A stretch of DNA of 64,000 nucleotides from Pseudemcibacter aquimaris. Lineage in GTDB: Bacteria > Pseudomonadota > Alphaproteobacteria > Sphingomonadales > Emcibacteraceae. Under the pieces are notes generated by a model, which saw nothing but the letters and a program-made list of their open reading frames with translations, was not told the origin of the DNA and did no database searches. Numbering within the stretch: position 1 is the first letter of the stretch; each line of letters opens with the position of its first letter. The position numbers and the translations under genes are program-made. The stretch is from contig NZ_CP079800.1 in the NCBI RefSeq assembly GCF_028869115.1, forward strand, positions 806,001 to 870,000, written 5' to 3'. Shown here one piece after another: positions 6,445-54,849 of this stretch.

Positions 6445-8097
6445 TTATAATCCGGTTCCGAATATGAGTTCCGGTAACCATGTGACTAATCCTTCGAAAT
6501 TATAAAGGATCACGAGCGCAAGTACCTGTATCAGGATAAACGGCATCACACCTTTATAAATATCGGTTGTCTTAACTCTGTCTTCTGGTGCAACGCCACG
6601 AAGATAGAATAGTGCATAACCAAATGGTGGTGTCAGGAATGATGTCTGAAGGTTCATTGCCATCATAACACCAAGCCAAATCGGATTAATATCCATCAGG
6701 AACAGCACAGGTGCCACAATTGGAACCACCACAAACACGATCTGGATGAAATCAAGGAAGAAACCAAGAGCAAACATCACAAGCATCACCAGCACAAACG
6801 CACCAAGACGCCCGCCCGGCAGGTTCGTTAGAAACTCAGTGATATAATAATCGCCATTAAACCCAAGGAAGATCAGCGTAAAGAGCGCCGCACCAACCAT
6901 GATGATGAAAATCATTGAACTTGTCTTTGCTGTCATTTGTACCACTTCGTGAATGACACGGTTACGGTAAACACGCATGAAGCTAACGAATAATCCCCAA
7001 ACCATCGCAAGTAGCGTTGGGATGGAAACAGCAAAGGCAATATAATCCATTACAGGGATTTCTTCGCGTCCCATACGCAGGTCGAATAAACCACCAAGCA
7101 ATAGAAGAAGGAAAATCGCGCCACCAGCCACAACAACTGGCATTGGATTGTCTTTGTCATTCTTGTAACCGGCCATAAGGATCGCACCAACAGCACCAAG
7201 GGCTGCTGCCTCAGTCGGTGTGGCGATACCGCCAAGGATCGAACCAAGCACAGCCACCACCAAAATAATTGGCGGAAGAAATGCTGCTAGAACAGGCTTA
7301 AGATCAATTTTTTCATTGCTATCAACTGTTGGTGGACACGCTTTCGGGAAGAATACAGCGACCAACACCTGATAAAGAATATAAAGTAATACAAGACCAA
7401 GACCAGGGATCAAGGCGCCGGCAAATAAGTCACCCACTGAAAGTGGCGTCGGTGCAAAGTTACCTTGTGCAAGCTGGGATGCTTGCCATGCAGATGATAA
7501 TTGGTCACCAAGCAGTACAAGCACGATTGATGGTGGAATAATCTGTCCAAGCGTACCGGCGGCAGCGATGCCGCCTGTTGCCACAGCAGGACTATATCCT
7601 TTGTTGAGCATAGTCGGTAGCGCCATAAGGCCCATAATGACCACTGTTGCACCCACGATGCCGGTTGACGCCGCAAGAAGCGCACCCACGATCGTTACGG
7701 AAATACCAAGACCACCTTTAATGCGGCCCATAAGCTGGCCCATACTTTCAAGCAAATCTTCTGCGATCTGTGATCTTTCAAGCATCACGCCCATAAACAC
7801 GAACAGGGGAACGGCCATCATAACCACGTTGGTCATGGTGCCGTAAATCCGTTGCGGTACCCCACCAATGATGGACATATCAAATATGCCAAAGGCATAA
7901 CCAAGTCCGGCAAATATCACTGAAATACCCGGAAGGGTAAAGGCAACCGGATAACCCACAAGTAACGATCCACATGCCAAAAGGAACATGACGGAACAAA
8001 GAAGCAAATCAAGCGGCATACCGAATAATTCACTTAGCCAGATACCAATAAGTACAAAATCGATCTGTAGGCCAATAAGAGATAAATCTAAAATCAT
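6445..8097 (-). CDS. dctM: TRAP transporter large permease (DctM type)
   Basis: Catalytic membrane subunit of a TRAP transporter that imports an organic acid with sodium. 550 aa against about 430 for the classic DctM. The excess lies in a mid-protein insertion (roughly 310-400) with extra hydrophobic segments, a layout seen in the subfamily that accompanies TakP-like receptors. Family segments include VATGGIAAAGTLGQIIPPSIVL and the closing MAMNLQTSFLTPPFGYALFYLRG. Its start overlaps the dctQ stop by one base, indicating translational coupling. Confidence 0.9.
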   Translation of the reverse strand: MILDLSLIGLQIDFVLIGIWLSELFGMPLDLLLCSVMFLLACGSLLVGYPVAFTLPGISVIFAGLGYAFGIFDMSIIGGVPQRIYGTMTNVVMMAVPLFVFMGVMLERSQIAEDLLESMGQLMGRIKGGLGISVTIVGALLAASTGIVGATVVIMGLMALPTMLNKGYSPAVATGGIAAAGTLGQIIPPSIVLVLLGDQLSSAWQASQLAQGNFAPTPLSVGDLFAGALIPGLGLVLLYILYQVLVAVFFPKACPPTVDSNEKIDLKPVLAAFLPPIILVVAVLGSILGGIATPTEAAALGAVGAILMAGYKNDKDNPMPVVVAGGAIFLLLLLGGLFDLRMGREEIPVMDYIAFAVSIPTLLAMVWGLFVSFMRVYRNRVIHEVVQMTAKTSSMIFIIMVGAALFTLIFLGFNGDYYITEFLTNLPGGRLGAFVLVMLVMFALGFFLDFIQIVFVVVPIVAPVLFLMDINPIWLGVMMAMNLQTSFLTPPFGYALFYLRGVAPEDRVKTTDIYKGVMPFILIQVLALVILYNFEGLVTWLPELIFGTGL

Positions 8098-8639
8098 TAC
8101 ACGCCCTCCGTCAGTTGTTCTTCGACGAGGTGTTCACGACCCGTGATAATCAATAATGAATGAAGCGAAATTGAAACACCTTGTAAGAAGGTGCTTGCTA
8201 CAAAAAGAAGGATCATGGATTTAAGGATATAAACAATATGAAGCCCACTGGTTTCAATTGATCCTTCCATAATGCCCCATGATTGTGACACAAATGGCCA
8301 TGCATAAACGCCGATGAAAATCAAAACCGGAAACAGAATGATGAGAGAGCCAAGTAAATTAATCCAGGCTTTCTTTTTTTCATTCAGTTTACTGTAAATG
8401 ATATCAACGCGTACGTGACCGTTATGTAGTAATGTGTATCCTGCTGCCCCCAAAAATAACAGAGAATGCATATAAGTTAGACTTTCCTGTACAGCGATAC
8501 TGCCTTCTGAATAAAGGTAGTTGATCATCACGATCCCAAACTGTACGAGTACTAGCCCAAGTGCTGACCATGCTGTAATCTTGCCGATTATTTCATTCAT
8601 GGCGTCAATTGCGCGGGCGAATTTTGCAATTCCTTCCAT
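8097..8639 (-). CDS. dctQ: TRAP transporter small permease (DctQ type)
   Basis: Four-helix membrane subunit that joins DctM. 180 aa with hydrophobic segments near 20-40, 55-70, 90-115 and 130-160; contains SLTYMHSLLFLGAAGYTLLHNGHVRVDII, matching the usual DctQ 'hvrvD' pattern. Lies between dctP and dctM in one operon, one-base overlap with dctM. Confidence 0.88.
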   Translation of the reverse strand: MEGIAKFARAIDAMNEIIGKITAWSALGLVLVQFGIVMINYLYSEGSIAVQESLTYMHSLLFLGAAGYTLLHNGHVRVDIIYSKLNEKKKAWINLLGSLIILFPVLIFIGVYAWPFVSQSWGIMEGSIETSGLHIVYILKSMILLFVASTFLQGVSISLHSLLIITGREHLVEEQLTEGV

Positions 8640-49158: not shown

Positions 49159-49511
49159 CCTCTTCCAAGCCATTAAAAATAAATAGATTTTTATCCATCT
49201 TCGAAATCAATTTTTAACCATTTATGGTTAATTTTAGTTCGTCTTTTTACAAGAGAGTTTGGTCTGTATTATAGAGCTGGAATTTATGGACGAAAAATGT
49301 GAGGTCAAAAAAAGACTTGCAATGCCAAAATTTATATCTAAAGTTTTAAATTAAGTGATATATTGAACTAACTGTAAAATAAGGATTTTTATATTTTATT
49401 AACCAAATCGTTTTAAACTTCGTAAGTTAAAAATATAAGAAAAATAAGAATAATAATAAGAAGAAATAAGTAAAATTGCAGTAAGCAATGTTACGAAAAT
49501 GTTGGAACGTT
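49159..49511. other. long AT-rich intergenic region before DUF2336 gene 1
   Basis: 353 bp, strongly AT-rich, ending in a purine tract (about 49436-49465). It holds the 18-bp palindrome at 49214-49231 and a 22-codon ORF at 49286-49354 with no good ribosome-binding site, probably not a gene. No terminator-like hairpin after the tRNA and no RNA gene was recognised. Confidence 0.6.
49214..49231. promoter_or_regulatory. perfect palindrome ttaaccat-tt-atggttaa
   Basis: Perfect 8-2-8 inverted repeat. Each arm, TTAACCAT, equals the half-site often bound by the alphaproteobacterial cell-cycle regulator CtrA, but the full CtrA consensus TTAA-N7-TTAA is not met (spacing is 10). Candidate operator for the downstream DUF2336-kinase unit. 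Confidence 0.4.
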
Positions 49512-50633
49512 ATGAGTGAAAATCTATCATCACAAAGCTTGTTAAAGCTTGCTATGGATAGCTCGAAGGGATCGAAAGATGCCCTGATGGAGAACATTAC
49601 AGATCTGTTTTTGTCCTCTAAAGGTCGCTTGAATGAGCATGAACGCGTTCTAATGAATGACATTATGGTCAAGCTTCTTAAAACCGTTGAAAAAACAATC
49701 AGAAAAAACCTTTCCAAAAAACTTGCAGAATCGGATGAGATTTCAATCGAGCTTGTCACCATGCTTGCCAATGACAATATTGAAATTGCGCAACCCGTTC
49801 TTGAAAAAAGTAAGCTACTTCGTGATGAAGATCTGATTGAAACAATTCGTAACCGCACGGATGCACATCGTCTTTCCATTGCTATACGTGAACATGTCAG
49901 TGAAAATGTATCAGGTGAACTGATTGAACATGGCAGTGAAGATGTGATCGAAGCGCTTATTCGCAATGAGAATGCAGAAATTTCACAAGCTTCACTGGAT
50001 TATTTGGTGCAGGAATCACGTTCAGTGGACCGCTTCCAAGAACCGCTTGTAAATCGAAATGATCTGTCATTTGAAATGGCCCACAAAATGTATTGGTGGG
50101 TGACAGCAGCGCTGCGTCGGAAAATCGTTGAAGATTTTGATGTCGATCCAAATTTGCTTGATGATGCACTGGAAAGTGCAACAAAAGAAATTATCGCGAA
50201 CCATAACGAAGAGGATGGCGTTATGCAAAAAGCGATATTGCTTGTTCGTACTATGAATAACCAAAGAAGGCTGAATTTTGATTTTGTTGTCACATCATTA
50301 AGACAGCAAAAAATAAATGTGGCTGTTGCTGCTCTCGCGGAAATGAGCGGCCTTGGGGTAAAGATTATCTGGCGCGTGATAAGGGAAAAAAATGACGAGG
50401 GTCTCGCTGTGATTTCACGTGCCATCGGGTTAGAAAAATCGCAGTTTTCATCAATGTTTTTGTTAATCTTGCAGGTGAATAGTGGGCCAAAGGCAAGATC
50501 GACATCAATATTGAATACGATGCTAAGTTTGTATGATAGGATTAAACCTGCAAATGCACGTGCCGCAGTGAAGTATTGGCAACGTGATTATCATTTTCAG
50601 GAAGCACAATTGTTATTACAGGATGCATGTTAG
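49512..50633 (+). CDS. DUF2336 protein 1
   Basis: 373-aa soluble, all-helical, acidic protein of the alphaproteobacterial DUF2336 family; function unknown. ATG at 49512 (MSENLSSQSLL). The N-terminal 230 residues look like HEAT-type repeats: IRKNLSKKLAESDEIS, ELVTMLANDNIEIAQPVLE, LVQESRSVDRFQEPLVNR. Close paralogue of DUF2336 protein 2 (53158-54273) over its whole length. Followed 34 bp later by the histidine kinase, so the two probably act together. Confidence 0.8.
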   Translation: MSENLSSQSLLKLAMDSSKGSKDALMENITDLFLSSKGRLNEHERVLMNDIMVKLLKTVEKTIRKNLSKKLAESDEISIELVTMLANDNIEIAQPVLEKSKLLRDEDLIETIRNRTDAHRLSIAIREHVSENVSGELIEHGSEDVIEALIRNENAEISQASLDYLVQESRSVDRFQEPLVNRNDLSFEMAHKMYWWVTAALRRKIVEDFDVDPNLLDDALESATKEIIANHNEEDGVMQKAILLVRTMNNQRRLNFDFVVTSLRQQKINVAVAALAEMSGLGVKIIWRVIREKNDEGLAVISRAIGLEKSQFSSMFLLILQVNSGPKARSTSILNTMLSLYDRIKPANARAAVKYWQRDYHFQEAQLLLQDAC

Positions 50634-50667
50634 GGTGCATCACACATTACTGGGATAGGATAGTAAA

Positions 50668-52341
50668 GTGGGAAAGAAAAATAATATAACAAATCAAACG
50701 ATTATCCCATTGGAAATCGTTGAAAAGCTGAGGGCAGAAAAGCTTGTCAAAACTCAATTAGAGAAGAGTGACAATCCGACTGTTAAAGATCAGATTCACA
50801 TGCTTCTTTCTAAAATGAAGTTTGATGAAAATGTTCCTCTTTATGTTTCAACAATTAATGGTGAACTTGTTTATGTTAATGATGGATATCGCGCTCTTGT
50901 CAGCGACAGCGAATCTATCAGCGGCATCGTTCACAATTCGCGTGGTGAATATTCACTACCTGGAAGCCTACTATCCATTTTAAATGAAGTACAATTAACC
51001 CGCAGCAGCGTTACCGTTGAAGAGACTATCCATCTTCACGGCAGCAATCATCAATATCGTTCTCGTCATTTTCCTATCTGTGACGACCAAGGATATGTGA
51101 TTGCCATTGGCGGTACTTATACGGATTGTACGGATCAATACCGTGCGACACAGACAGAAGAATTAAGCGGTAATGATCAACGTTACCGCGATTTCGCACG
51201 TGCAACGTCGGACTGGTATTGGGAAGTTGATAAATCATTTAATCTGACTTATTTATCAAATCGTTTCACTGCACTAACGGGTGTTCCATCATTCTTGATG
51301 ATGGGTAAACAGCTTAGTGAGTTGGGAACACTTCTTGATGGCTTTGATGGAAAAATAGTTGATGAAACAGCATTTATGAACAAAAATGCGCCGTTTCGTG
51401 ATCAGCTGTTGGTGATTAAGGATCAGGACGATGAAGATGTTTATGTTTACTTAAGTGGTGTGCCGCTTTTTGACGTAAAAAGTGGCGAATTCCAAGGTTT
51501 CCGAGGTGCCGGTACAGATGTGACGGAAAACCGTAAAGCAAAGATTGAAGCAGAGACCGTTCAGGAAACATTGATTGATACGCTTCATGAATTAAAAGGT
51601 AAGCGTGCGCAACTTGATGTGGCAACGAAACAGGCGGAAGAAGCCATCGAAGCAAAAGGCGATTTCCTTGCGGCGATGAGTCATGAGCTAAGAACGCCGC
51701 TTAATGCGATTATTGGTTTTGCTGAAACCATGACCATGCAGGCGTTTGGTGAACTTAACGATCAATATATTTCATATAGTAATGACATTATGAATGCGGG
51801 TCGTCACCTGCTACACCTTATCAATGATATTCTGGATGTTGCGGTTCTTGAAAGCGGCAAAATTCAGCTTGAGACAGAAGATGTGTCATTAAATGATGTT
51901 ATTAATGGTGCCCGTAATATGGTCGCGATTAAGGCGGAAAGCAAAGAAATTGATATTAGTGAAGTTTCACTGAATGAAGAAGTTGATATCTGTGTTGATG
52001 CACGTCGTGTTACACAAATTTTCGTAAACCTTCTAAGTAACGCCGTGAAATTCACACCAGAAGGTGGTTCGGTTGGTGTTAAAACGCGCGTCTTTGAAGA
52101 AGGAATCATCGGCGTAACAGTATGGGATACCGGTATTGGTATTGCCCCGGATCAACAAGAACTTGTTTTTGAGAAATTCCATCAGGACCGCGGTCATATT
52201 TATGCCCGTAAGGAAGAAGGAACCGGTCTAGGACTTCATATTTCAAAACATCTAGCCAAACAGATGGGTGGTGACGTCGTTCTGAAAAGTAAAGTCGGCG
52301 AGGGATCAGAATTTACCGTTCTGCTTCCGCTTTCAAGATAA
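50668..52341 (+). CDS. soluble PAS histidine kinase
   Basis: Two-component sensor kinase, 557 aa, GTG start. No membrane helix. Two PAS-like domains (about 48-150 and 168-295), a coiled-coil (about 296-333), HisKA with phospho-His339 (SHELRTPLNAIIGFAE) and HATPase with N-box Asn458 (LLSNAVKFTPEGG), DTGIGI and GTGLGLHISK. The catalytic half resembles the PleC/DivJ group of cell-cycle kinases. No response regulator gene is next to it, so the partner is encoded elsewhere. Likely co-transcribed with DUF2336 protein 1. Confidence 0.9.
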   Translation: MGKKNNITNQTIIPLEIVEKLRAEKLVKTQLEKSDNPTVKDQIHMLLSKMKFDENVPLYVSTINGELVYVNDGYRALVSDSESISGIVHNSRGEYSLPGSLLSILNEVQLTRSSVTVEETIHLHGSNHQYRSRHFPICDDQGYVIAIGGTYTDCTDQYRATQTEELSGNDQRYRDFARATSDWYWEVDKSFNLTYLSNRFTALTGVPSFLMMGKQLSELGTLLDGFDGKIVDETAFMNKNAPFRDQLLVIKDQDDEDVYVYLSGVPLFDVKSGEFQGFRGAGTDVTENRKAKIEAETVQETLIDTLHELKGKRAQLDVATKQAEEAIEAKGDFLAAMSHELRTPLNAIIGFAETMTMQAFGELNDQYISYSNDIMNAGRHLLHLINDILDVAVLESGKIQLETEDVSLNDVINGARNMVAIKAESKEIDISEVSLNEEVDICVDARRVTQIFVNLLSNAVKFTPEGGSVGVKTRVFEEGIIGVTVWDTGIGIAPDQQELVFEKFHQDRGHIYARKEEGTGLGLHISKHLAKQMGGDVVLKSKVGEGSEFTVLLPLSR

Positions 52342-52354
52342 GATATAAACTTTT

Positions 52355-53128
52355 TTAGCTGATAAATTGTTCGTTTAAGATACGCTCTTCAAGCGTATGT
52401 TCACGGTCGAATAATAATGTTTTGGTGTATGAATTATCCTGTTCAATTGAAACGGACATAACATTACGTACTTCAATGGTATCAGCAACCGCACTAACCG
52501 GGCGTTTCGCAGGGTCACTAATTTCAAATTTAATTTTTGCGGCTTGCGATAATAGCGCACCACGCCATCTGCGCGGTCTAAAGGCGCTGATCGGTGTAAG
52601 TGCCAGGATATTTGCATGCATCGGGATAATCGGACCGTGCGCCGATAGGTTATAGGCTGTACTGCCAGCCGGGGTCGATATCAAAACGCCATCACAAACT
52701 AGCTCTTCTAATCTTAATTTTCCATCAATATAGATTTTGACCTTGGCCGCTTGCCTTGTTTCACGAAGTAAGGATACCTCGTTAAAAGCAATTGCTTCGA
52801 AATCCTGGCCTTCCATCGTTGTCGTCTGCATTTTAAGCGGATGAAGTTGAAACGGCATAGCCTTTTCAATGCGTTCAATCAGGTTTTCTGGGTGATATTC
52901 GTTGAGAAGAAAGCCAACCGTACCCAAATTCATTCCAAAAATAGGTTTATTAACATTTATGATTTCATGAAATAAATGCAGCATATATCCATCACCGCCA
53001 AGGGCGACGATTGCATCCGCTTCTTCAACAGAAACAAATGAATATAACTTTCTAAGCTCTTCGGCTGATTTTTCCGCCTCTTCGCTATGGCTATTCACAA
53101 GCGCGAGCTTTAAGTCTTTATTCGACAT
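52355..53128 (-). CDS. nadK: NAD kinase
   Basis: Phosphorylates NAD to NADP. 257 aa. The ATP-NAD kinase GGDG motif is at 44-47 (ALGGDGYMLHLFHE) and the NAD-binding STPAGSTAYNLSAHGP near 149-164. Convergent with the histidine kinase, 13 bp apart, no clear terminator. In the same orientation as DUF2336 protein 2, 29 bp downstream of it. Confidence 0.95.
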   Translation of the reverse strand: MSNKDLKLALVNSHSEEAEKSAEELRKLYSFVSVEEADAIVALGGDGYMLHLFHEIINVNKPIFGMNLGTVGFLLNEYHPENLIERIEKAMPFQLHPLKMQTTTMEGQDFEAIAFNEVSLLRETRQAAKVKIYIDGKLRLEELVCDGVLISTPAGSTAYNLSAHGPIIPMHANILALTPISAFRPRRWRGALLSQAAKIKFEISDPAKRPVSAVADTIEVRNVMSVSIEQDNSYTKTLLFDREHTLEERILNEQFIS

Positions 53129-53157
53129 GGATATTGCCTATTAATAATTAAACAGGC

Positions 53158-54273
53158 TTAGAATATAGGAGTACGTGCAGAATCTTCAACCCATTTGTGT
53201 AAAATGAGTTTTGCGCGTTGCTCGTTTGTATTCACAAATTGACTATATGTATGTTCAATTTCTGATTGGCTTAATTCTGTATCCATCATTTTTGCCTCAC
53301 GTGTTAAGCGGAACATGGTTAGGAATACAGATTTATCAATGCGTGCAGCACAACATGCTATGGCAAGGGCCGCCGGACCACGTTCATATAAAATATTACA
53401 CATGATATCTTCAGGAACATTCAGAATTTCTGCGAAAGCGAGTTCAAATAAGCGGGTGTTGCCTTGACGAAGACTTTTCATCAAGAAAGAAATATGCAGT
53501 TTGTTTGCCTTTTTCAGTTTTGCAATCAATGTTACTTCGGCATCAACTGTTTGACCGTTAAGGTTGTCTTCTTTCTTTAATTCTTTGATTGATGATTCTA
53601 GCTGTTCTTCCAATTCTTCTTCAGTGAAAGAATGAATTTCCATCAGTTCAGATTTTAACGACATGGAAATCCAGCTATACATTCTGGCTGCGATATGTTT
53701 AGGAAGATCTTGTCTATGAACAAGTGGTGACTGTAAAATTTCGCGCGTTTTTGATTTTTCTACAATTTGTTCAATTGTATCGTTATCGATCTTTGCTTCT
53801 TGGTTGGAAAGAAGTGTCACAATTACATCGTCATCATCGGTTCTCACCAGTTCACGACATACATCTGAAGAAAGCATTTTGCGTGCAGCAATGCTTAATT
53901 GATGCTGACGCGATTTTCGTTGGATGATTCGAACCAGTTCTTTATCGGTCAGTAACGTGTTTTGTAAAAGAATCGGGTTGGCGACTTCAATTTCATCATT
54001 AGCGAGAAGAATAATAAGTTCTGCAGGAAGGTCAGCTCGATCGGCTAGCTTAAGTGCGAGTTTCTTACGAATGTTCACTTCGATATCGCAAATGATTTTG
54101 CTTAAGATATCCATCATCAAATCAATTTCAGTGATTGAAATTTGTTGATGTTGTGCCTCTATCAGGTCTGTTATGCCATCAAAAAGGGCCGCACGAGCAT
54201 CTTTACTGCTATCGTGTGCCAATGACATCAGCTTTTCGATTTCTTCGCCTGTTGTGTTCTCTATATCGCTCAT
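53158..54273 (-). CDS. DUF2336 protein 2
   Basis: 371-aa paralogue of DUF2336 protein 1, reading in the opposite direction. Same layout: N-terminal MSDIENTTGEEIEKLMSLAHDSSKD, HEAT-like helices with NIRKKLALKLADRADLPAELIILLANDEIEVANP, cut here to key parts, then a helical C-terminus. The matching block in protein 1 is TIRKNLSKKLAESDEISIEL. Function unknown. Upstream of nadK by 29 bp. Confidence 0.8.
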   Translation of the reverse strand: MSDIENTTGEEIEKLMSLAHDSSKDARAALFDGITDLIEAQHQQISITEIDLMMDILSKIICDIEVNIRKKLALKLADRADLPAELIILLANDEIEVANPILLQNTLLTDKELVRIIQRKSRQHQLSIAARKMLSSDVCRELVRTDDDDVIVTLLSNQEAKIDNDTIEQIVEKSKTREILQSPLVHRQDLPKHIAARMYSWISMSLKSELMEIHSFTEEELEEQLESSIKELKKEDNLNGQTVDAEVTLIAKLKKANKLHISFLMKSLRQGNTRLFELAFAEILNVPEDIMCNILYERGPAALAIACCAARIDKSVFLTMFRLTREAKMMDTELSQSEIEHTYSQFVNTNEQRAKLILHKWVEDSARTPIF

Positions 54274-54435: not shown

Positions 54436-54849
54436 CTATTCAATAATGTCCAAAGCTGCATCTTCAATTTCGGACAATGTTCTTAAAACCGCGGCATTTG
54501 CCTTATATGCATTCTTCGCTTTTATCAGCTCGGAAAATTCAATTGCCGGTTCGACATTTGGAACATTAACAAATCCTTCTTCATTTGCAACCGGATTATC
54601 CGGGCTAAATACACTTAAAGATGCCGGATTTACAGGAACATTATGTGCTGTTACGCCGCCATTCTTATTGGATGTATTTACTGTCCTTTGCGGGACATAT
54701 GCCTTGGCCGCTTTTAAACCCGCAGTGCTTCTGTCGCCACCAACAGGCATAGAAGTATTGTAAGCGTTAACAATATTATTGGCCGCAGTATTGGCCCTTG
54801 TTGACGCTGCGAGTAATCCAGACAGACTTGTGCTAATTCCATTTATCAT
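54436..54849 (-). CDS. FlgC-like flagellar basal-body rod protein
   Basis: 137-aa protein of the flagellar rod family: N-terminal helix ISTSLSGLLAASTRANTAANNIVNAYNTS and C-terminal helix EFSELIKAKNAYKANAAVLRTLSEIEDAALDI are the rod signatures. The middle carries QRTVNTSNKNGGVTA and a Pro-rich linker. Isolated from other rod genes (flgB, fliE), so it may be a second, specialised rod-like protein rather than the main FlgC. Confidence 0.75.
   Translation of the reverse strand: MINGISTSLSGLLAASTRANTAANNIVNAYNTSMPVGGDRSTAGLKAAKAYVPQRTVNTSNKNGGVTAHNVPVNPASLSVFSPDNPVANEEGFVNVPNVEPAIEFSELIKAKNAYKANAAVLRTLSEIEDAALDIIE

Follow-up and report, generated by a model that had tools for sequence, protein, structure and literature searches.

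Conserved pairing of a DUF2336 gene with an orphan PAS histidine kinase in Pseudemcibacter aquimaris and other alphaproteobacteria

Do a DUF2336 protein and the histidine kinase encoded directly behind it work as one signaling unit? The question is raised by a locus in a 64,000-nucleotide stretch of the Pseudemcibacter aquimaris contig NZ_CP079800.1, here called the window, to whose numbering coordinates refer unless stated otherwise. DUF2336_A (49512-50633, forward strand, 373 residues, Pfam PF10098 at 3e-63), a predicted alpha-solenoid of the SpbR family, lies just upstream of a gene on the same strand for a soluble PAS-PAS-HisKA-HATPase histidine kinase (50668-52341, 557 residues, GTG start; assigned by Pfam, alignment and hydropathy), with a gap of 34 bases. 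A second paralog, DUF2336_B, and the NAD kinase gene nadK converge on this pair from the reverse strand. An earlier note on the same DNA had described this layout, ending in a FlgC-like gene, and every gene was confirmed in place. What is observed is a widespread, selectively maintained and tightly spaced pair of a DUF2336 gene and a gene for an intact kinase. The interpretation that we favor, with modest confidence, is that DUF2336_A and the orphan kinase form one signaling unit in which DUF2336_A, perhaps with DUF2336_B, acts as a dedicated scaffold or regulator in polar or flagellar development.

The linkage was examined in three sets of loci, with genes called by script as longest open reading frames (ORFs); fetched loci, genomes and family codes carry labels beginning with L, G and f, respectively. 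The first set consists of 20 loci (L035-L054, family codes f1 and f4) picked for two convergent DUF2336 genes, the intervening content not being part of the picking rule. In every one of the 20, the kinase and nadK are found between the convergent A and B genes, and chance proximity of two DUF2336 genes was rejected on this ground. The second set, 70 named loci (L063-L132) from a genome scan with two peptide patterns of DUF2336_A alone, overlaps the first in genomes and is counted apart; its nearest named relatives are Emcibacteraceae/Kordiimonadaceae-type alphaproteobacteria. The kinase lies directly downstream of A on the same strand in 67 of the 67 informative named loci, 66 by count and one (L119) in which the kinase match begins behind the end of A, while L107, L127 and L130 stop at a contig edge and are uninformative. 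For the third set, a class-level search with the A profile matched 73 of 241 genomes, and 60 stretches (L133-L192) were hand-picked from part of that list. Here 25 of 68 DUF2336 genes have a kinase next downstream on the same strand, against a background of 2 of the 344 other genes of the same loci. The script had placed a kinase downstream of 23 and upstream of 4, with 40 lacking one and 1 at an edge; L135 and L162, in which start-extended kinase ORFs overlap A and the kinase-profile match lies just behind it, were added from the 40. Setting aside L144, L146, L191 and L192, which were chosen with their kinase already known, leaves 21 of 63 genes, spread over 15 family codes. One linked kinase is weak (L158, 99 bits), and L154 was rejected as a linked pair because its 784-residue neighbor is a molybdopterin enzyme. 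The co-occurrence check that the earlier note had called for therefore finds the linkage conserved, both in the named loci and across family codes at class level.

The two genes are also closely spaced. Among 121 linked pairs, a redundant set, 38 overlap and 69 are separated by 0-50 bases, and a spacing of -4, as in translationally coupled genes, was seen 7 times; no ORF in this set matched both the DUF2336 and the kinase profile. In a quick tree of 118 kinases (82 linked, the kinase of the window included; 5 of 86 linked and 4 of 40 unlinked kinases left out for short cores), the kinase of the window belongs to an all-linked group of 62 rows with an SH-aLRT of 98, or 61 rows at 99 without it. 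The remaining 20 linked kinases fall outside this group, 16 of these sharing a more weakly supported mixed group with 4 unlinked kinases, and the linkage label changes 7 times across the tree compared with 31.2 times in shuffles. Because linked kinases are also found away from the main group, the kinase partners of DUF2336 appear to come from more than one lineage. The mixed group also holds a P. aquimaris kinase (G000:C1:1327814-1328596, L202) whose fetched stretch has no DUF2336 gene. Purifying selection is indicated by pN/pS values of 0.11-0.28 for A, the kinase and B in six pairs, with synonymous sites near saturation. All three lie below nadK in five of the six pairs; in the pair L035/L038, both members of which are flagellum-less, A (0.277) and B (0.275) lie above nadK (0.239). 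It is improbable that all this reflects a conserved neighborhood only, in which slow rearrangement has left DUF2336, kinase, nadK, moaA and flagellar genes side by side with no joint function. Seed matches to nadK and moaA are indeed also kept, in 44 and 26 of the 70 named loci, but numerous families carry such a pair even as its neighbors change, the kinase comes from more than one lineage, and the two genes include overlapping and -4-spaced examples; the background rate given above speaks against this explanation as well.

Judged by its sequence, the kinase is an ordinary, intact HisKA kinase and an orphan, not specifically of the DivJ or PdhS type. Pfam detects HATPase (2e-27), HisKA (1.3e-17), PAS_4 and PAS_9 domains, and residues H339, N458 and D487 are invariant in 48 of 48 aligned sequences, so that the protein has the features of a two-component histidine kinase, namely the HisKA phospho-acceptor histidine and a HATPase domain with intact N and G1 boxes. 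The highest 19-residue hydropathy mean is only 1.09 (1.59 for DUF2336_A and 1.43 for DUF2336_B), and therefore no membrane helix is indicated; with two PAS domains and no hydrophobic stretch, the soluble PAS kinase of the earlier note stands. Its PleC/DivJ-like label proved too specific. The kinase matched 84 NCBIfam families, mostly through the kinase core, and among the best 25 of these TorS (207 bits), BarA (202), HrmK (196) and PnpS (190) outscore DivJ (184.7, cut-off 1000) and PdhS (171.2, cut-off 2000), all remain under their cut-offs, and no PleC model appears. On these scores a specific PleC/DivJ identity is unsupported, the equivalog thresholds of DivJ and PdhS being far above the bits obtained, which come from the kinase core only. 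The P. aquimaris genome contains 57 further matches to the kinase, the best with 45% identity over residues 309-555.

The earlier note had also remarked on the lack of an adjacent response regulator, and this extends beyond the window: no response regulator is conserved next to the linked kinase in loci L035-L192 or in loci fetched later. Receivers occur in 26 of the loci L035-L192; 12 of the 26, all of Emcibacter type, have theirs upstream of DUF2336_A, mostly beside a different kinase. A conserved adjacent response regulator was therefore rejected as part of the module, since a single-domain receiver stands beside the linked kinase only in L156 and L268. Two lineage-specific arrangements were seen. 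Eight Emcibacter-type loci (L074, L075, L077, L078, L083, L084, L086 and L107) carry an extra response regulator and a different kinase upstream of DUF2336_A. In L268 (genome G166), a single-domain receiver gene (7794-8162 of that locus) is convergent with a window-type kinase and is a possible cognate regulator in that lineage; it shares only 23-32% identity with receivers of the P. aquimaris genome, in which 34 receiver matches were counted.

Both flanking proteins belong to the DUF2336 family (PF10098), with 214.2 bits for A and 186.1 bits for B over a cut-off of 34.6, and they share 33% identity over 311 aligned positions. The ORF of DUF2336_A opens at 49488; its start is likely 49512 because the homologous ORFs of eight congeneric loci (L035-L042) begin at residue 9. 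The earlier note had proposed a HEAT-like fold, and this fold class is supported by an AlphaFold2 model of A from a 70-sequence alignment (pLDDT 86.3, pTM 0.60), which is almost wholly helical. VIA-align superposes model residues of about 65-240 on HEAT/ARM-type and LRV solenoids, best on the alphaRep chain 7z0g_C (Z 9.2, rmsd 4.6, 166 residues, residues 65-239 of A), then on PP2A PR65 (1b3u; Z 7.6, rmsd 3.9, 150 residues) and on 1lrv (Z 6.5, rmsd 10.2, 179 residues); helical repeats commonly reach Z values of this size, and the match speaks to fold class only. Few of the 50 structural rows extend past residue 243 or so, and the fold is barely tested beyond the N-terminal two thirds, for which A is predicted to be a HEAT/ARM-like alpha-solenoid. 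The model has no Foldseek match at E <= 0.001 and the sequence of A alone no match in the Protein Data Bank (PDB) at E <= 1; a profile search with A gave three weak PDB matches, two of them to designed repeat proteins.

Residue conservation was counted after redundancy reduction in 85 DUF2336 proteins with a kinase downstream, 31 with a kinase upstream or near on the other strand, and 68 others. H127 of A is present in 85/85, 31/31 and 48/68 of these groups, W204 in 84/85, 30/31 and 27/68, R134 in 85/85, 31/31 and 67/68, and R190 in all 184. The pattern of H127 and W204 is a lead for a contact surface and not proof of one, because the others include contig-cut loci and B-type genes. The same histidine invites the explanation that A and B are themselves phospho-acceptors, a new phosphotransfer protein replacing the missing response regulator. 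Its constancy in both kinase-associated groups fits this idea, but H127 is also common in unlinked copies, R134 and R190 are equally or more conserved across all groups, and in the predicted model H127 sits close to where a short helix of the solenoid begins; the explanation is very improbable.

SpbR is a cell-pole protein of Caulobacter that is reported to bind PopZ. The NCBIfam model NF052659, which appears from its name and its DUF2336 match to refer to Caulobacter SpbR, is the sole NCBIfam family found for A and B. Each scores 159.5 bits (about 1e-46 over about 310-320 residues), short of the cut-off of 400. The P. aquimaris genome (3.37 Mb, one contig) has four DUF2336 genes: A, B, a solo copy (L001) and D (L004). 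At 445.5 bits the solo copy exceeds the cut-off and is for this reason the SpbR equivalog of the genome, and D scores 126. On sequence grounds, then, A, B and D are paralogs of SpbR. The Caulobacter protein is cited in PMC12700997 through Wang and Bowman 2019 (doi 10.1111/mmi.14247), and no pairing of SpbR with an adjacent kinase was encountered in the literature examined, a difference from A. The likeness lies in the shared family and in a P. aquimaris gene of PF10691, which we take to be the PopZ family. That gene family is present in all 19 genomes with the kinase, and also in 203 of 241 overall, so its co-occurrence says little.

How might such a unit work? The DUF2336_A solenoid would bind the kinase, with the PAS or DHp region as the simplest docking site, and would set its activity, its location in the cell, or both, by analogy with PodJ and PleC. 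DUF2336_B may be another partner, though a less obligate one. The phosphoryl group would pass to a response regulator encoded elsewhere, and the output would be polar or flagellar development coupled to the cell cycle; nadK and moaA are regarded as neighbors. A polar or flagellar output is suggested because SpbR lies in the family, because the kinase clade is found at flgK-flgL or flgI-FlaG in other families, and because loss of the flagellum does not always take the unit with it. Scaffold-kinase pairs are known in Caulobacter as PodJ-PleC, SpmX-DivJ and PopZ-CckA, and PodJ binds the PAS domain of PleC through an intrinsically disordered region and forms condensates, according to PMC8980812. 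The proposed unit would resemble these pairs in having a partner without catalytic activity that binds a PAS histidine kinase, determines its position and alters its activity. It differs from PodJ-PleC in that PodJ is disordered and condensate-forming, whereas DUF2336 is a predicted folded alpha-solenoid whose gene adjoins that of its kinase. In the open literature searched, with subscription papers outside its scope, there is no mention of DUF2336, COG5330, PF10098, or SpbR together with PopZ, nothing on Kordiimonas with kinase and flagella, and no description of the kinase-plus-scaffold unit.

Several findings weigh against this interpretation. At class level, 38 of 68 DUF2336 genes have no kinase directly beside them, and therefore much of the wider family lacks a neighboring kinase; no dominant neighbor family was found for DUF2336 genes without one. 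No response regulator partner for the kinase was found among the loci examined. The biology of SpbR may not transfer to A and B, because both score well below the SpbR cut-off. DUF2336_B (53158-54273, reverse strand, 371 residues, PF10098 at 1.1e-54), convergent with A in the window and 29 bases from nadK, was not found in 27 of 66 named kinase loci despite at least 3.5 kb of room; it is in tandem in 10, convergent in 19 and untestable in 10. A B-type DUF2336 gene also lies beside moaA and/or nadK with no kinase downstream in L149, L155, L157 and L188. These two findings about B favor a rival explanation in which A and the kinase alone form the unit, with B coming from a separate B-moaA-nadK block that is adjacent by shared ancestry, which is an appreciable possibility. 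Against it stand the tandem order A-kinase-B on one strand in 10 named loci (Sneathiellales-type and Oceanibacterium) and in L264, L265 and L266, as well as the order DUF2336-kinase-DUF2336 in L151, L152 and L165 of other families. DUF2336_B as an obligate part is unsupported. So is nadK as a specific part: nadK (52355-53128, reverse strand; NCBIfam NF003406, 377.5 bits over a cut-off of 211) lies with moaA and a B-type DUF2336 gene in L155 and L188, without a downstream kinase, and is probably a conserved neighbor and not part of the signaling unit. The B-type gene with moaA and/or nadK in the four loci named above is a second conserved block in its own right. An extra ORF of about 330 residues lies between nadK and B in 5 of the 20 convergent loci, and is moaA by seed in the overlapping L085, L093 and L096.

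The flagellar side of the interpretation meets objections of its own. Flagellar genes were labeled with seeds from Kordiimonas marina (L115) and Sneathiella chinensis (L116), assigned by Pfam as FlgK, a flagellin-type protein in the FlgL position, FlgI and FlaG; labels in all other loci rest on similarity to these seeds. Among the 70 named loci, 23 have FlgK and FlgL, 1 FlgL alone, 6 FlgI and FlaG, and 1 FlaG alone (31 in total), and 14 have only a FlgC-like gene of the family seen in the window. Typical orders are flgK-flgL-(flavin reductase)-A-kinase / nadK-moaA and flgI..FlaG-A-kinase-B-moaA-nadK, the latter repeated in L264-L266 from three genomes of one family code. These flagellar neighbors of the pair, flgK-flgL and flgI-FlaG, are found outside the family of the window. 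No flagellar gene was detected by the seeds in 25 of the 70, several of which are on short contigs, and none in the class-level linked loci outside the kinase group of the window. FlgI is found in 19/19 genomes with the kinase (E <= 1e-85) compared with 127/222 without (Fisher p 9e-5), and in 67/73 genomes with a DUF2336_A-type match (E <= 1e-50) compared with 79/168 (p 4e-12), phylogeny being ignored in both. A further objection comes from congeners, in which FlgI, FlhA and FlgC served as the markers of flagellum loss and the assemblies are incomplete. G001, G003, G005 and G007 (92-96% complete) lack FlgI and FlhA, and all of their FlgC-type matches, including the window-type FlgC-like gene, are below cut-off; three of them nevertheless retain A, kinase, nadK, B and the FlgC-like gene (L035 in G001, L036 in G005, L038 in G007), and G003 has four DUF2336 matches. 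Retention of the whole module in three flagellum-less congeners means that its role extends beyond the flagellum. In G002, none of FlgI, FlhA, DUF2336 and FlgC gave a match.

These data also bear on a flagellar assembly checkpoint, in which the kinase and DUF2336 would monitor the building of the hook or filament and regulate late flagellar genes. Although flgK-flgL or flgI-FlaG genes stand beside the pair in the 31 named loci and FlgI is present in every genome with the kinase, the three congeners keep the module under purifying selection without FlgI and FlhA, and flagella do not need DUF2336, as the five genomes of family code f6 have FlgI and no DUF2336 (one weak match in G036). We regard the checkpoint as rather unlikely. 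Of the earlier suggestion that the module concerns the cell cycle or flagella, the flagellar gene context in other lineages and the kinship with SpbR speak in favor, and a strictly flagellar role is unsupported given the three aflagellate congeners.

The FlgC-like gene (54436-54849, reverse strand, 137 residues), 162 bases from DUF2336_B and on the same strand as B and nadK, reaches 69.1 bits against TIGR01395, below the cut-off of 102.1, and the FlgC above that cut-off in the P. aquimaris genome is a different gene (genome position 1038146, 134.5 bits). It adjoins DUF2336_B in 16 of the 20 convergent-pair loci, two of the other four stopping at a contig edge. In L035, L036 and L038 a function as flagellar rod protein is unlikely, because the gene is intact beside DUF2336_B in genomes lacking FlgI and FlhA; whether it belongs to the module is uncertain. 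Beyond it lie mfd, sdhE and recG, of which mfd and recG were named from their ORF sequences.

The remaining DUF2336 copies of P. aquimaris have neighbors of their own. The D-type copy is directly preceded by a same-strand ORF with a GG[DE]EF motif in 11 of 15 loci (L213-L227), and in P. aquimaris itself (L213) the preceding gene is GGDEF by Pfam. The other loci comprise L222, which is GGDEF by Pfam without the motif, two with unscanned ORFs of similar length, and L227, which has no such gene. Since a GGDEF gene precedes D in most loci examined, the DUF2336 family joins a second signaling enzyme. The SpbR equivalog (L270 2066-3178, genome position 1008332) lies about 14 kb from flgI (FlgI at 1022910), and in a dozen relatives the highest-scoring DUF2336 gene and FlgI are about 14-31 kb apart, which does not hold in G016. 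A wider and speculative generalization, probably too broad, is that the DUF2336/SpbR family as a whole supplies dedicated alpha-solenoid co-regulators for the signaling enzymes of alphaproteobacteria, with one partner per paralog (A and B the PAS kinase, D a PAS-GGDEF protein, SpbR the PopZ pole) that would wire together polar development, flagellar assembly and c-di-GMP.

The kinase scaffolds of Caulobacter, PopZ, SpmX and PodJ, work through disordered or condensate-forming proteins, according to PMC8980812. If the preferred interpretation is true, a folded helical-repeat partner encoded beside its kinase in many family-level groups would be a genetically tractable second scaffold design, and it would predict co-purification of DUF2336_A and the kinase, a shared mutant phenotype and polar localization. 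It would also give a role to DUF2336, a domain without a paper in the open literature searched, and provide a handle on the link between SpbR-type polar proteins and flagellar genes.

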